Assembly (NCBI GenBank): GCA_029259745.1
Contig: JAJDEO010000031.1
Coordinates: forward strand, 67,001 to 131,000
Length of the DNA: 64,000 nucleotides
From: Planctomycetota bacterium
Lineage (GTDB): Bacteria > Planctomycetota > B15-G4
Reading direction: 5' to 3'
Every line of letters begins with the position of its first letter. Positions within the stretch are counted from its first letter, which is position 1. Under the pieces are notes generated by a model. That model did no database searches, had not been told where the DNA came from, and worked only from the letters and a program-made list of their open reading frames with translations. Below are positions 452-8,763 of the stretch, in pieces. The position numbers and the translations under genes are program-made.

Positions 452-3145
452 TCAGCGCGACGTGCTCACCGACGCGTCGAGCCAGGCCCGCGCCGTGTCG
501 GCCTCGGCGCGACGCCCGGCCGCCTCGTAGAGCGCAACCATGCGCGTGAGACACGCCGTGACGGTCCAGTGCCCGGCCCCGTAGGCGCGCCGTACGTCAG
601 GTTCGAGGGCCTCGAGAACGGCGATCGCCTCGTCTTCACGCTCGGCGGCTGACAGCATGTCGGCCAGGGCGACGGTGGCGTCGATCACGGTGAAGCTCGC
701 AGCCGGATGAGCGCGCGACAGGCGTCCGTGAGCCGCGAGCGCGCGTGCCGCCGCGGCACGGGCATCCCCGAGTTCGAAGAGCACGTGCGCGTGCTGAAGA
801 AGCGCGCGTCCGGCCAGGGCATCACCGCCGCGTGTCGCAAGCGTGTCCGAGACGGTTTCGATCACAACGAGCGCCTCGTCGAGACGCCCGACCGACCAGA
901 GCGCCCGGGCGAGATCGATCTGCAGGTTCAGGGTGGCAACGTGTTCAGCGCCACGACGGGCGCGCGAGGCCTCCAGTGCCTCCTCGAAGAGAGCGACGGC
1001 CTTGTCGCCCTGCTCCGTCCCGAGATAGAGCGCCGCGAGTTCACTGCGAGCTGCCGCGGTCCGCACGGACGTCGACAGCCGCTCACCGAGCACATCCAGC
1101 GCCGCTCGATAGTGCTCTTCGGCGACGTCGTAGAGTCGGCGTTGACGCGCGAGGTTCCCGAGCAACACCCGCGACGACGCGACGTCCTCGCGTGCGCGCA
1201 GCGCCTGCTCTGGGTCGACATCTCCAGCGGACCGCTCGAAGTGCTCCAACCACGCTTCGCGCAAGCCCAGCGCAGCCGCCGCCGACACCTCGGCCGCCTC
1301 GCCTTCGCCGAGTGAGTAGTCGAGCATCGCGAGATTGAAGAGCGCGTCGGCGTGCTCGTGTCCTGCGATGTCCGCGCCCAGGCGCTCGGCCATGGCGAGG
1401 GCCGCGTCGAGCATCTCGCGCGCTTCGGCGTCGCGCCCACGACGCGCCAGCACGACTCCGACGTCGCCAAGCGCAGCGCACACGTCGCGATGGTCGGACG
1501 CATGCTCGGCGCGCCGCAGCTCGAGCACACGCTCGTACTCGGCCAGCGCGGCATCGAAGCGTCCGAGCCCTTCGTAGGAGTGGCCGAGTGCCTTGCGGAG
1601 CGCGACTTCGACCTCTGGTTCGTCGGCGAACTTCTCCGTTGCCATCGTCGAGGCCTCGTCGAGCATCTCGGCGACAGTCACGTTGGCCCCGCGCACGCTG
1701 GGGTCCGCGGAGCGAAAGATGTCGAGCAGGAAACGGTTCACGATCGTGTTGATGCGGTCCGCCTTGGCCAGCGTGTCGTAACTGGTCGCGAGCTGGTCAT
1801 GCGCGTGCCCGAGAACTCGGTTGTGGATCGCGAGTGCGATCGGCGTGGCGAGCACGACGAAGAGCGCCAGCGCGGCCGCCGTGGCTGCGGCGGGATTGCG
1901 ACGCATCCAGCGCCCGACGCGCGTGAGCGTGCCGACCGGTCGCACGTGCAGGGGCTGATAGTCGAGAAAGCGCAGCAGGTCGGCGGCCATCTCCGCGGCC
2001 GAGGGATAGCGACGCGCCGGGTCCTTCTCGAGCGCCGTCAGGCAGATCGTCTCGAGGTCGCGCGGCACGGACGGATTGCGTTTGCGCGGCGAGGCGGGCT
2101 CGTTGCCGTGGATGCGCTTGAAGACCTCGTGGTTCGTGCGACCCTCGAAGGGGCGCGTCAACGTCAGCAGCTCATAGAGCGTGACGCCGAGGGAGTAGAC
2201 GTCCGTGCGCGCGTCTGTCTCGTCGCCATGGGCCTGTTCGGGCGAGACGTAGTACGGCGTGCCCGTGAAGTCACCCGTCATCGTCAGCGACGAGTTCGAC
2301 TCGGTGTGCGCGAGCCCGAAGTCGAACAGCTGCGCGCGACCATCCTGGCTCACGAGGATGTTGCTCGGCTTGACGTCGCGGTGAACGATGCCATGCCTGT
2401 GCGCGTGCTCGAGAGCGTCCGCGACGTCGAGCACGAGACGGCAGATCGCCTGGACGTAGGCACGTCCCCATTCGCGCGGGAGCGTCACCACGGGGACGTC
2501 GTCGTCGGCGGTCTTGGGCAGTGGTTCGTCGCTCTCGCGCTCGACGGCCGCGAGGAACGTCGCGCGACCGAGATCCGTCGAGTCGAGCTTGTCGGCTGAG
2601 ATCTCGAGTCCGCGCAGCGACGCGATCACGGCGTCGAGCGTGCGCCCCTCGACGAACTCCATCGTGAAATACGGTTGACCGTCATCCTCGCCGACGTCGT
2701 AGACAGGCACGATGCAGGGGTGACGCAAGCTCGCCACCGCGCGCGTCTCCCGGCGGAAGCGTTCGAGCGCGCGCTCGCTCTGGACGAGCTGCGACGGCAG
2801 GGCCTTGAGTGCCACGACGCGCGACAAGCGCGTGTCCTCGGCGAGATAGACAACTCCCATCCCGCCGCGGCCGAGCGGCCGCAAGATGCGGTAGTGGCCG
2901 AGGCGCCGGCCGCTGCCCGCGAGCCCGGTGCCGACGAGCACGCGGACATTCGCGACGATCTCGTCGGCGTGCTCGGGGTGCTCGCGGCAGAAATCTTCGA
3001 AGGCCTCGTCGCCGTCGGCATCGAGACGCTCGAGACCTTCAGCGATCAGCAATCCGAGCGGCGTCAGGCCCAAACCGTCTCCGTCACCGTCGATCCGCCC
3101 GGGATCGTCGGCTCCATCGGAAGGAGGCGTCTCGATGTCGACCAT
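452..3145 (-). CDS. Membrane Ser/Thr protein kinase with C-terminal TPR sensor region
   Basis: An 897-aa PknB-type (Hanks) kinase. A short acidic N-terminal region precedes the kinase domain at about 84-395. Visible motifs are the glycine loop LGRGGMG (91-97), the ATP-anchoring Lys in VALK (111-114), the catalytic loop HRDVKPSN (255-262), DFG (275-277) and an activation segment ending in GTPYYVSPEQ. The domain holds a roughly 45-residue acidic insert before the catalytic loop. A single membrane segment lies at about 418-440. The rest, about 460-890, is TPR-like and probably lies outside the cytoplasm if the kinase domain is inside. This kinase-TM-TPR layout is common in Planctomycetota. The gene diverges from an ECF sigma gene, which suggests a signalling pair, but that is inference from position only. 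Confidence 0.9.
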   Translation of the reverse strand: MVDIETPPSDGADDPGRIDGDGDGLGLTPLGLLIAEGLERLDADGDEAFEDFCREHPEHADEIVANVRVLVGTGLAGSGRRLGHYRILRPLGRGGMGVVYLAEDTRLSRVVALKALPSQLVQSERALERFRRETRAVASLRHPCIVPVYDVGEDDGQPYFTMEFVEGRTLDAVIASLRGLEISADKLDSTDLGRATFLAAVERESDEPLPKTADDDVPVVTLPREWGRAYVQAICRLVLDVADALEHAHRHGIVHRDVKPSNILVSQDGRAQLFDFGLAHTESNSSLTMTGDFTGTPYYVSPEQAHGDETDARTDVYSLGVTLYELLTLTRPFEGRTNHEVFKRIHGNEPASPRKRNPSVPRDLETICLTALEKDPARRYPSAAEMAADLLRFLDYQPLHVRPVGTLTRVGRWMRRNPAAATAAALALFVVLATPIALAIHNRVLGHAHDQLATSYDTLAKADRINTIVNRFLLDIFRSADPSVRGANVTVAEMLDEASTMATEKFADEPEVEVALRKALGHSYEGLGRFDAALAEYERVLELRRAEHASDHRDVCAALGDVGVVLARRGRDAEAREMLDAALAMAERLGADIAGHEHADALFNLAMLDYSLGEGEAAEVSAAAALGLREAWLEHFERSAGDVDPEQALRAREDVASSRVLLGNLARQRRLYDVAEEHYRAALDVLGERLSTSVRTAAARSELAALYLGTEQGDKAVALFEEALEASRARRGAEHVATLNLQIDLARALWSVGRLDEALVVIETVSDTLATRGGDALAGRALLQHAHVLFELGDARAAAARALAAHGRLSRAHPAASFTVIDATVALADMLSAAEREDEAIAVLEALEPDVRRAYGAGHWTVTACLTRMVALYEAAGRRAEADTARAWLDASVSTSR

Positions 3146-4576: not shown

Positions 4577-4653
4577 GTCCCCGTAGCTCAGCTGGATAGA
4601 GCATCGGATTTCTAATCCGACGGTCGCAGGTTCAAGTCCTGCCGGGGACGCCA
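4577..4653 (+). tRNA. tRNA-Arg (anticodon TCT)
   Basis: A complete cloverleaf can be read. The acceptor arm GTCCCCG (4577-4583) pairs with CGGGGAC (4643-4649). A D arm begins GCTCAG, the anticodon stem TCGGA/TCCGA encloses the loop TTTCTAA, and the T arm contains GGTTCAAGTCC. The middle bases of the anticodon loop are TCT, which reads AGA codons. The discriminator is G (4650) and the CCA end is encoded (4651-4653). Its 3' end lies 6 bp from the end of the convergent His-rich gene. Confidence 0.95.
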
Positions 4654-4659
4654 TACGTC

Positions 4660-5625
4660 TCAGAAGTGGCGGCTGATACCCACGACGACGCCATCGTCGA
4701 TGTCTTCGGGGCCACCGATCGGGACGCGGTAGCCCGCGCGCACGGCCCAGGTGCTTCCGAGCTGGTGCGTGATGCCCACGAGCACTTCGGCCGTGTCGCG
4801 CCCGCGGTCGTCGCCGCGCACCGCCGTGCGACCGGTGAGTTCGAGCGTCGCGGCCGTGAGACGGTGCTCGACGGGGCCGGGTGCCGGAGCGTGGCCCGAC
4901 TCGTCGATCACGTAGACGAGGCCGCCGCGGTAGAAGAACTCGATGTCGTCGCTCTCGAAGCCGTACTCGGCCCCCACCTGCGCCCCGGCCTGGAAGTCAC
5001 GGCCGAGATCGAACCAGGCCGAGAGGGACGGCGCGACGGCCCACTCGCCGCTGCCCGTGTCCTTGCGCGCCGAGCCCGTGGGCGCCGAGACCTCGAGGTT
5101 CGCGGACAGCAGGTGAGTGTCGGAGGCGTCGAGCACCCAGCGGGGCGCGACGGCAATGTCGCCGAGGCCTGAGTTGGCGCGCTCGCCGTCGGCGTCGACG
5201 CGCACCCACGGTGCCTCGATCGCGATGCCGAACGTCTCGCTGAAGGCCCACTCGAGCTCGGCCTCGAGCTCGAGCTCGTCTTCGTCGTCACCGCGCGTGC
5301 GAACGGCGTCGATGAACAGTTCGCGCCCGAGGAACGCCGGCTCGAAGCCGAACGGGTGCACGTACGGCGTGCCGAGCGGGCTCGCGTGACCGTGCGGTGG
5401 CCCATGGTCGTGAGCCTGTCCGTCACCGTGCACGTCGGACTCGTCGTGAGCGTGCTCGTGACCGTCATCGTCGGCGTGAACGCCGGCGGACGCGTGATCG
5501 TGCGCGTGCTCGACCGTGGCCTCGTCATCGAGGCCCGTCCGCACCGTCTGGACCGGGGAAGGCCCGGCGCAGCCGAGGAGTGAGAAAAGGGCGACGAGGA
5601 GGATGACGGCGACGTGGATCTTCAT
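4660..5625 (-). CDS. His-rich outer-membrane lipoprotein, probable metal-handling barrel
   Basis: A 321-aa protein with a lipoprotein signal peptide ending in LLGC (Cys19). A low-complexity segment at about 40-80 follows, with 12 histidines in roughly 40 residues mixed with Asp and Glu, a typical metal-binding spacer. Residues from about 95 on have the alternating pattern of an outer-membrane beta-barrel and end in the terminal aromatic His-Phe often seen in barrel proteins. I start at ATG 5625 because it begins a clean signal peptide (MKIHVAVILL); in-frame ATGs also lie at 5631 and 5637. The gene diverges from a Fur-family regulator with a palindrome at 5646-5661 between them, suggesting metal-dependent control, with zinc the best guess. 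The barrel family is not recognised with certainty; a role in metal uptake, binding or efflux is inference. Confidence 0.72.
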   Translation of the reverse strand: MKIHVAVILLVALFSLLGCAGPSPVQTVRTGLDDEATVEHAHDHASAGVHADDDGHEHAHDESDVHGDGQAHDHGPPHGHASPLGTPYVHPFGFEPAFLGRELFIDAVRTRGDDEDELELEAELEWAFSETFGIAIEAPWVRVDADGERANSGLGDIAVAPRWVLDASDTHLLSANLEVSAPTGSARKDTGSGEWAVAPSLSAWFDLGRDFQAGAQVGAEYGFESDDIEFFYRGGLVYVIDESGHAPAPGPVEHRLTAATLELTGRTAVRGDDRGRDTAEVLVGITHQLGSTWAVRAGYRVPIGGPEDIDDGVVVGISRHF

Positions 5626-5645
5626 GGGCATGACCATCGCCTACA

Positions 5646-5661
5646 TGCCAATGCATTTGCA
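5646..5661. promoter_or_regulatory. Candidate Fur/Zur-family operator palindrome
   Basis: TGCCAATGCATTTGCA equals its reverse complement at 14 of 16 positions. A second half-site, TGCATT, follows at 5664-5669. It sits in the 76-bp spacer between the His-rich lipoprotein and the Fur-family gene, where a shared operator controlling both would be expected. Confidence 0.5.
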
Positions 5662-5701
5662 ACTGCATTCCGACAGAATCAAGCGCTACACTCGTCGCGC
5701 C

Positions 5702-6076
5702 ATGCGAATGACCATCCAACGCCGCGCAATCCTCGACGCGCTCCGGCGTGTCCAACGCCCGCTGACGCCCAAGGAGATCCTCGAAGAGGCTTCCGCCGAG
5801 GCCGAGGATCTGAGCCTCACGACGGTTTACCGCAACCTCAAGGCTCTCACGGCGTCAGGAGCGCTCACCGTCGTGGAGGTCTTCGGACAGCCGCCCCGGT
5901 ACGAACTCGCGGGGCTCGACCACCACCACCACTTCCTCTGCCAGGTCTGCGATCGGCTCTTCGACGTCGAAGGCTGCCCCGGCACGTTGGCCTCCATGGC
6001 GCCTCCTGGCTTCGCCGTGCTCGGTCACTCCGTGCTGCTCACGGGCCAGTGCGCGGAGTGCGGCGAGAGCAGCTGA
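5702..6076 (+). CDS. Fur-family metalloregulator (Zur/Fur/PerR type)
   Basis: A 124-aa protein, slightly shorter than typical Fur. The N-terminal winged helix includes MTIQRRAILDALRR and the recognition-helix region DLSLTTVYRNLKAL. The dimerisation half carries the metal cluster DHHHHFLCQVC at about 77-87 and a closing CAEC, giving the two CxxC pairs of the structural zinc site found in many Fur and Zur proteins. ATG 5702 gives the normal family start; the frame is open further upstream but runs through the neighbour's promoter. It faces away from a His-rich outer-membrane lipoprotein, which favours zinc (Zur) over iron or peroxide as the signal. That choice is inference, since the family cannot be assigned to one metal by eye. 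A possible -10 element TACACT (5687-5692) lies close to the ATG, so the upstream palindrome could allow autoregulation. Confidence 0.85.
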   Translation: MRMTIQRRAILDALRRVQRPLTPKEILEEASAEAEDLSLTTVYRNLKALTASGALTVVEVFGQPPRYELAGLDHHHHFLCQVCDRLFDVEGCPGTLASMAPPGFAVLGHSVLLTGQCAECGESS

Positions 6077-7047: not shown

Positions 7048-8763
7048 TTACGGAGCGGCGATTCGGAAGCCGTCCGAGACCGCAAAGCCTTCAGCGGCGC
7101 CCGAGTCGACGATCCAGTACTGCATGAAGATCTCGAAGCCCGGGGGCAGGCCGTCGGGCCACGTCGACGAAAGCTGGATCAAGCCGAGGAAGCTCGTGGT
7201 CAGCGGGATGATGAAGCCCGGCGCCGACGGGTCGGGAACCAGGATGCCACCCTTGAAGGGAGCGCTGAGTTCCGAGACACCGATGACGAGGTTCGCGAGC
7301 GCGTTCGGCGGCGCCGCGACGAGCGTGTAGCTGATCAGGTTGCCGGCGCACGGCGTGCCCGAGAGCAACAGCGAAGGCACGACGGGCGAAGTGCCTGGCA
7401 CGCCACCACCGAGGTTCGAGATCCCCGAGCCCTGGGCGTTCACCGACACGGTGTAGGCACCGCGGCTGCCGTAGTCGCTGTAGACACCGGCCTTTTCGCC
7501 GCCATCGATGAGGATGGTGTAGTTGCCTGCAGCGAGGTCAGGTGTGACCGTCACGCTTTGCGTGTTCGTCGGCGTCTCCGTGAGCACCTCCGAACCCGAG
7601 CCGTCGAGCAGCGTCAGATCGATGTCGACGTTTCCGCCGGGCGCCGTCGGCGTGGCCGAGATCGTGACCGTGCCGCCGGACGTCGAGAACGAGAAGGCGT
7701 CGACGTCGTTGCGACGTTCGATCACACCGTCGACCGAACCGGGCGCGGGAACCGGACACCCGACACCAGGCGGCACCGGCGTGGCCGAGCCACTCGTGTC
7801 GCCGTGGTCATCGTCGTACAGGTCGATGCCGTTGCTGCTGTTCGTGATGATCTGGATGTCGTTCTGACTCGTGGTCGCTCCGGAGTAGTCGCCGTTGCTC
7901 CACTGGACGAGGCTCGAACCGAACGGCGCGCCCATGATCGGACCCCAACCCTGCGTACCCGGGTGGTACGACGAACCGTTGAGACCGTCGTGGACGAGAC
8001 CGAACGTGTGGCCGACCTCGTGACTGACGGTCATCGACCCGGTGTTGTTGCCCTTGTTGAAGGCGAAGCACGGGTTGTCGATCGAGTCGTTGAAGGAGTT
8101 GAGCAGCGCGACGCCGCCGATGCCGTCACCGAAGCCACTCGTGGACTGCGTGATGACGCAGCGCATGCCGTAGCGCTGGTCGCCCGAGCCGTTGCGCGTC
8201 AGGTCGCTGAGCGGCGGCTCGACCGTCGTGACGTTGACGTCGAAGGGGGAGAAGTCTTCGACCACGTAGAGCCACCACGTGATGATCTCTTCGAGCTCGC
8301 CGGTGCTGAAGCTGGCCGAGGAGCCCGAGGTGTTGTAGGGCGGGAACGTGATGTTGTGGCCCCACGAGTTGCTCACCGACTGGTGACCCGTGAAGTCCAT
8401 GTAGATCGTCTTGTCGGCGCCCGGGTTGCTGCTCAGGTTGAAGGCGTCTTCGGGCGGAATCGAGGCGCCCAGGGCCGGCGACTCGTCGTCGCCGCCGGGG
8501 GCCGTCGCCGTGTCGACGACAAAGAGGCGCTGATCTTCGCTGACCCACAAGGTCGGATCGTTGCGAAGAGCGGACACGAGTTCGGCCGGCGGGATCGAAT
8601 GTTCCTCAGCGACGCGCGCGAGGTCGCTCCCGAGGAACTCGATCGCCGCACGACCGCCGAGGCGATTGTCGAGGAGATCGGATTGGGCTGAGACGGACGC
8701 ACTCAGGGCGAGCAACGCCCAGAGTCCGGCCCGCGGAGCGGACGGAGAGAACAGGGTGGTCAT
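7048..8763 (-). CDS. Secreted metzincin-like zinc metalloprotease with pre-peptidase C-terminal domain
   Basis: A 571-aa exported protein. The start at ATG 8763 gives a signal peptide ending near SVSAQ (about 27); the frame stays open upstream but loses protein character. A pro-region covers about 28-110. The protease part is at about 115-320 with the zinc motif HEVGHTFGLVHD (248-259), that is HExxHxxGxxHD as in metzincins, where the third His and Asp extend the site. A conserved IMGAPFGSS segment follows about 15 residues later and may be the Met-turn. A pre-peptidase C-terminal-like beta domain lies at about 335-425 (DVDAFSF ... GNYTILIDGG), and a C-terminal beta module of about 120 residues ends the protein. 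It probably digests extracellular protein. The family subgroup is uncertain. Confidence 0.82.
   Translation of the reverse strand: MTTLFSPSAPRAGLWALLALSASVSAQSDLLDNRLGGRAAIEFLGSDLARVAEEHSIPPAELVSALRNDPTLWVSEDQRLFVVDTATAPGGDDESPALGASIPPEDAFNLSSNPGADKTIYMDFTGHQSVSNSWGHNITFPPYNTSGSSASFSTGELEEIITWWLYVVEDFSPFDVNVTTVEPPLSDLTRNGSGDQRYGMRCVITQSTSGFGDGIGGVALLNSFNDSIDNPCFAFNKGNNTGSMTVSHEVGHTFGLVHDGLNGSSYHPGTQGWGPIMGAPFGSSLVQWSNGDYSGATTSQNDIQIITNSSNGIDLYDDDHGDTSGSATPVPPGVGCPVPAPGSVDGVIERRNDVDAFSFSTSGGTVTISATPTAPGGNVDIDLTLLDGSGSEVLTETPTNTQSVTVTPDLAAGNYTILIDGGEKAGVYSDYGSRGAYTVSVNAQGSGISNLGGGVPGTSPVVPSLLLSGTPCAGNLISYTLVAAPPNALANLVIGVSELSAPFKGGILVPDPSAPGFIIPLTTSFLGLIQLSSTWPDGLPPGFEIFMQYWIVDSGAAEGFAVSDGFRIAAP

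Follow-up and report, generated by a model that had tools for sequence, protein, structure and literature searches.

A probable Zur-type regulator and a histidine-rich, predicted outer-membrane lipoprotein share a conserved operator in a planctomycete

Introduction

In Caulobacter, Zur controls the TonB receptors ZnuK and ZnuL via sites of the GTTA-N5-TAAC type (PMC4176598). Together with ZnuD of Neisseria, these proteins exemplify the Zur-regulated TonB zinc receptors, large plugged barrels of the outer membrane that admit scarce zinc. The porin MspD of Mycobacterium smegmatis is tied to zinc homeostasis (PMC13098993). When B. cenocepacia is starved of zinc, a "phenol degradation protein" whose number adjoins that of a TonB receptor increases together with zur and znuABC (PMC10563805). 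ZepA, a Zur-linked secreted PEP-CTERM exoprotein, is found in several phyla including the PVC group (PMC10957091). The Zur boxes of E. coli are bound by one or two dimers (PMC6103462). Caulobacter zrpW was also considered as a precedent and was dropped because it is described as a six-transmembrane protein and not as a barrel (PMC4176598).

Here, we describe a divergent gene pair of a probable Zur-type regulator and a His-rich lipoprotein, located in a stretch of 64,000 nucleotides from a Planctomycetota bacterium (the window). Like the TonB zinc receptors, the lipoprotein is a putative outer-membrane protein under a Zur operator, which would admit scarce zinc. In contrast to them, it is small, lipidated according to its lipobox, of the PF13557 type, and equipped with a His-rich arm, and the box at its operator is of a TGC type and not of the Caulobacter type. 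It resembles ZepA in its Zur linkage, its export, the histidines near the mature N-terminus, and the Fur-family gene nearby, but ZepA is a secreted PEP-CTERM exoprotein, whereas the window protein has a lipobox and a predicted barrel (PMC10957091). Targeted literature searches retrieved no description of such a target for a planctomycete Zur, and the outer-membrane component of the module is new.

Results

The lipoprotein gene (321 amino acids, 4660–5625, minus strand) and the regulator gene (124 amino acids, 5702–6076, plus strand) are divergently orientated, as an earlier reading of this DNA, made from the letters and open reading frames (the sequence-only reading), had stated, and share a spacer of 64 bp (5638–5701). 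Further in-frame ATG codons of the lipoprotein gene are located at 5631 and 5637, of which 5637 is listed as the alternative start. The lipoprotein gene converges with a tRNA-Arg gene (TCT; 4577–4653, plus strand; predicted by ARAGORN) and ends 6 bp past the 3' end of the tRNA.

The lipoprotein starts with a signal peptide and lipobox (MKIHVAVILLVALFSLLGC; 5569–5625, minus strand). The lipobox LLGC (residues 16–19) is perfect and ends at Cys19, which bears out the earlier lipoprotein assignment. It is followed by a His-rich segment (residues 40–90; 5356–5508, minus strand) containing 13 histidines. The sequence-only reading had counted 12 His in about 40 residues; the segment is indeed His-rich, but the count has to be corrected, as any 40 residues hold 11 at most. 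Residues 92–321 (4663–5352, minus strand), which display alternating hydrophobicity and end with a C-terminal Phe, are predicted to form a beta-barrel. Within this part, residues 129–227 match PF13557 (E 2.4e-9, 38.1 bits, curated cut-off 22), and 13 of 15 members of the lipoprotein family match it at E 0.01. The barrel assignment rests on this family membership, because single-sequence AlphaFold2 folding of the domain alone yielded a pLDDT of 32 and was uninformative on the fold. The "barrel-like" domain of the sequence-only reading thus agrees with the family match and gained nothing from the structure model. A profile search of solved structures (PDB) gave no relative of the lipoprotein. 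The Pfam scan of all 321 residues revealed neither a TonB nor a plug domain, so that the protein lacks the combination of plug and 22-strand barrel by which TonB receptors are recognized.

Among 392 genomes sampled from the phylum, close homologues of the lipoprotein were found in only two others. The genome G350, from a planctomycete of a different family, encodes the same lipoprotein (46% identical) divergently from the regulator; this homologue has a lipobox (LLLAGC) and pairs of His residues, located ahead of the barrel and within one loop. The lipoprotein-type homologue in the third genome, G378 (45% identical), is devoid of a lipobox, its PF13557 match alone falls short of E 0.01, and neither a relative of the regulator nor a box was detected in this genome. 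His60, His80, His90, His245, and His320 are invariant among the three proteins. Conservation among these close homologues is higher in the barrel part, and the long His arm, the most expanded part of the window protein, is confined to that protein. In the alignment of distant homologues (about 27% identical), most of the five histidines are absent, and no Zur linkage was seen in seven of their loci that were inspected. The search of plasmids and viral contigs retrieved no homologue. PF13557 genes in 15 proteobacterial genomes carrying relatives of the regulator had no convincing Zur box. A PF13557-type family (L120–L140; about 310–355 amino acids), found mostly in one planctomycete family (f43) and often with two copies per genome, has a conserved motif of the W-TPW type ahead of the barrel region and no Zur link.

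The regulator matches PF01475, the Fur winged-helix and dimerization family (E 1.2e-20, 74.3 bits, cut-off 23.1), consistent with the Fur-family identity proposed before. The closest solved structures are Zur of Streptomyces (1.1e-14) and Zur of M. tuberculosis (4e-12), followed closely by a Fur. In the NCBIfam search, the regulator reached no equivalog cut-off. The best match, a Mn-dependent PerR model, remained far below threshold (59.8 of 200 bits), and the Zur equivalog NF008646 scored 11.8 bits with a cut-off of 167. As the latter model represents the enterobacterial type, the miss lowers the weight of the Zur label while remaining compatible with a Zur function.

Relatives of the regulator (80 fetched, 45% to 56% identity) stem mostly from Burkholderiales and also from Planctomycetota, Gemmatimonadota, Chloroflexota, Thermus, and others. 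ZnuA, ZnuB, CobW, or ZIP are encoded within the fetched flanks of 32 of these 80 relatives and at 11 of the 19 planctomycete loci; ZnuC was left out of these totals because its counts are inflated by other ABC ATPases. Beside the window pair itself, there is no adjoining znu gene. In two planctomycetes (L146:6566–9110 and L147:3259–5213), the Zur relative is accompanied by an ABC ATPase and/or permease and by a small His-containing lipoprotein, which in L146 carries the tract HDHGHDHGHDHGHGHEH and matches PF10986 (ZrgA).

Seven residues (Cys80, Cys83, Cys92, Cys117, His74, His76, and His109) are invariant across 105 relatives, and Glu68 and Cys120 are nearly so. Cys80, Cys83, Cys117, and Cys120 are predicted to form a structural-type Cys4 site; Glu68, His74, His76, and Cys92 are candidate sensor residues. 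An extra cysteine at the sensor site is a known mark of Zur proteins, and Cys92 would be this sensor ligand. A second Fur, of the iron type, is encoded on the same contig at a distance of 9 kb from the pair, shortly before the window begins (L087:8419–8925). Its motif is HHDH, compared to HHHH in the regulator family, and it has Asp in place of His76 and Glu in place of Cys92. Because of the zinc-gene neighbourhoods of its relatives, the Zur proteins among the closest solved structures, and the invariant extra Cys92, a zinc sensor of the Zur type is the most likely identity of the regulator, with zinc as its probable effector. The same three lines of evidence uphold the link to Zur that the sequence-only reading had drawn.

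In a maximum-likelihood tree, in which the bootstrap had not fully settled, the regulators of the window and G350 grouped together (100/90) with those of G146 and L006 as their sister group, and all four formed one clade (100/94). In G146 and L006, the regulator is divergent from an unrelated porin-like gene heading an operon of the order porin-znuA-znuC-znuB. The divergent partner in the four-member clade is therefore an outer-membrane-type protein each time, namely the lipoprotein in the window and G350 and the porin-like protein in G146 and L006. The porin-like protein is longer and exported, and one of its relatives matches Porin_O_P weakly, below the cut-off. Porin-like genes heading a znu operon and divergent from a sister Zur are located at L145:2009–6042 and L006:819–3914. 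Six Zur-linked proteins of the porin-like kind were aligned, and all of them have His223, His490, and His492, among which is an H.H-type motif at the C-terminus.

The operator (5646–5669) is composed of the palindrome TGCCAATGCATTTGCA at 5646–5661 and an overlapping extra half-site, with TGCATT at 5664–5669, 3' of the palindrome within the spacer. Seven of the eight base pairs of the palindrome are complementary, which equals the 14 of 16 palindromic positions reported earlier, and the second TGCATT is present as described. Read as a whole, the operator consists of four tandem hexamers in 6-bp steps (TGCCAA-TGCATT-TGCAAC-TGCATT). Palindromic 16-mers of equal quality occur 86 times in the window, and one is present in 1.3% of the shuffled spacers; by itself, the palindrome is only mildly significant and weak evidence. 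We take the operator to be real because it is conserved: boxes occur in the relatives, and each of the four spacers in the closest clade has one. When a palindromic weight matrix was trained on the regions upstream of the regulator relatives, it converged on AATGATAATGCATTATCATT. This family-wide box was found upstream of 65 of 106 distinct regulator relatives compared to 2% of shuffled upstream regions, where the independence of the matrix is incomplete because it was seeded with the window core and the window is one of the 106. The converged consensus differs from the window site in the outer letters, and the window site scores moderately (12.1), so that it appears to be a planctomycete variant of the family-wide box. 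The window, G350, G146, and L006 all have a box in the divergent spacer. An alignment of the four spacers showed the box and the region of the extra half-site in common, and the invariant columns were concentrated there and at the start of the regulator gene. The search of related genomes for the gene pair and a palindrome in front of it, which had been suggested as a check, was thus answered by G350, another species in which both recur.

A larger regulon in the same genome was considered and rejected, because a convincing box was found at this spacer only. A perfected 16-mer with up to three mismatches had two other weak places in the genome, fewer than the reversed-pattern control. The pattern TGNNAANGCNTTNNCA with up to one mismatch had 37 sites, as many as the reversed-pattern control, which gives no support for a larger regulon. 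No good box was present at the znu-like operon on C34, the ZnuA-like gene on C58, or the best cobW on C9. On C58 (L164:5980–8309), a permease-like gene precedes one for a ZnuA-like protein containing a short His tract, and no Zur box was found there. Since the box is convincing at this spacer and missing at the inspected znu-like and cobW genes, the operator appears to be a local switch dedicated to this pair and not the exposed part of a more extensive regulon. A sigma-70 promoter scan found no promoter; its model is uninformative for this bacterial group.

The pair was probably gained laterally beside the tRNA-Arg gene. The genome G002, which belongs to the same family, retains the run of purD-like, O-antigen ligase-like, ECF sigma, and tRNA-Arg genes, and the pair is absent beyond the tRNA. 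Two further genomes of the family, G003 and G001, have a more distant regulator (45% and 41%, respectively), whose inspected neighbour is a TPR lipoprotein, and the regulator of G003 falls outside the four-member clade. Both the missing pair in the tRNA-Arg context of G002 and the distant regulators of G003 and G001 fit a lateral gain. The window holds no att-like repeat of the 3' end of tRNA-Arg, a GC anomaly was not found either, and no integrase was noticed in a general inspection of the ORFs near the pair. Between the O-antigen ligase-like and ECF sigma genes, the window contains a serine/threonine kinase-like ORF (452–3145) whose C-terminus carries a long extension; this ORF is absent from the same context in G002. 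At 7051–7458, the window encodes the C-terminal region of a secreted protein, which recurs in several secreted proteins of genomes of the same family.

Discussion

The pair is a real, conserved module of regulator, operator, and target, and it probably handles zinc in the uptake direction. The zinc-linked porins, that is, MspD (PMC13098993) and the porin-like proteins of G146 and L006, are comparable to the lipoprotein as non-TonB pores or predicted pores tied to zinc status. The G146 and L006 proteins also share the regulator clade and the operator with the window pair. However, no sequence relation to the window protein is detectable for either, and the long His arm is missing in G146 and L006. 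Proteins of PF13557 (Phenol_MetA_deg) have the C-terminal domain in common with the lipoprotein, in which it scores above the family cut-off, but the other members seen are without the long His arm and the Zur operator. The "phenol degradation protein" of B. cenocepacia presumably bears an old name for a PF13557 member and may be a precedent for a zinc-regulated protein of this family.

We favour, as rather probable, a compact zinc-starvation module made up of an autoregulated Zur-type repressor and an outer-membrane lipoprotein serving the capture or entry of zinc. With ample zinc, the metal-bound regulator would occupy the 24-bp operator, either as a single dimer or as two dimers that overlap, and repress both its own gene and the divergent lipoprotein gene. 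Upon zinc scarcity, it would release the operator, and the lipoprotein would be made, exported, and lipid-anchored at the outer membrane. There, the His-rich arm may bind zinc near the mouth of the C-terminal barrel, and the lipoprotein would let the zinc pass, or hand it over, to the periplasm, where it would be available to ordinary inner-membrane importers. All steps past the operator are ones we infer. Tentatively, and with more doubt than confidence, the lipoprotein may represent a zinc entry protein independent of TonB: a single lipid-anchored polypeptide would combine a His-rich, zinc-gathering arm with a pore of its own, and its gene and that of the dedicated autoregulated Zur would have passed as a module from one planctomycete lineage to another.

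A different role of the lipoprotein under the same Zur control is conceivable, although we regard it as unlikely: it may be a zinc store, scavenger, or surface chelator, whose His arm buffers zinc and whose barrel is a mere anchor. Such a role would suit the expansion of the His arm in the window protein, the merely predicted pore function, and the redundant anchoring that a lipid anchor together with a barrel would give. The better conservation of the barrel part argues against it, as do the sister regulators facing porin-like genes at the head of znu operons, which suggest a slot for an outer-membrane entry protein.

Doubts may also concern the metal. That the regulator senses Fe, Mn, Ni, or peroxide and the lipoprotein handles the respective metal is improbable in view of the zinc-type neighbours of the relatives (ZIP, CobW, ZnuA with His-rich loops, and ZrgA), the invariant Cys92, and the separate iron-type Fur nearby. 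The sub-threshold PerR match points the other way, ZnuA-like context proteins may carry Mn, and sequence gives no certain metal specificity in the Fur family. A chance arrangement, in which an ordinary PF13557 porin for hydrophobic or aromatic compounds lies opposite a Fur gene and the His tract is unrelated to the regulator, would accord with the distant homologues and with the proteobacterial PF13557 genes, which are found among other genes and without a convincing Zur box. It is very improbable, given that the same pair and box recur in G350, which belongs to another family within the phylum, and given the five invariant His positions in the three close homologues.

For the zinc-starvation module favoured here, the comparison with G146 and L006 suggests that unrelated outer-membrane proteins take turns under the Zur of this clade: the slot is conserved and its occupant changes. 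Little is known about how free zinc gets across the outer membrane in the absence of a TonB receptor, and this locus, which unites regulator, operator, and outer-membrane protein in one short module, offers a testable candidate.
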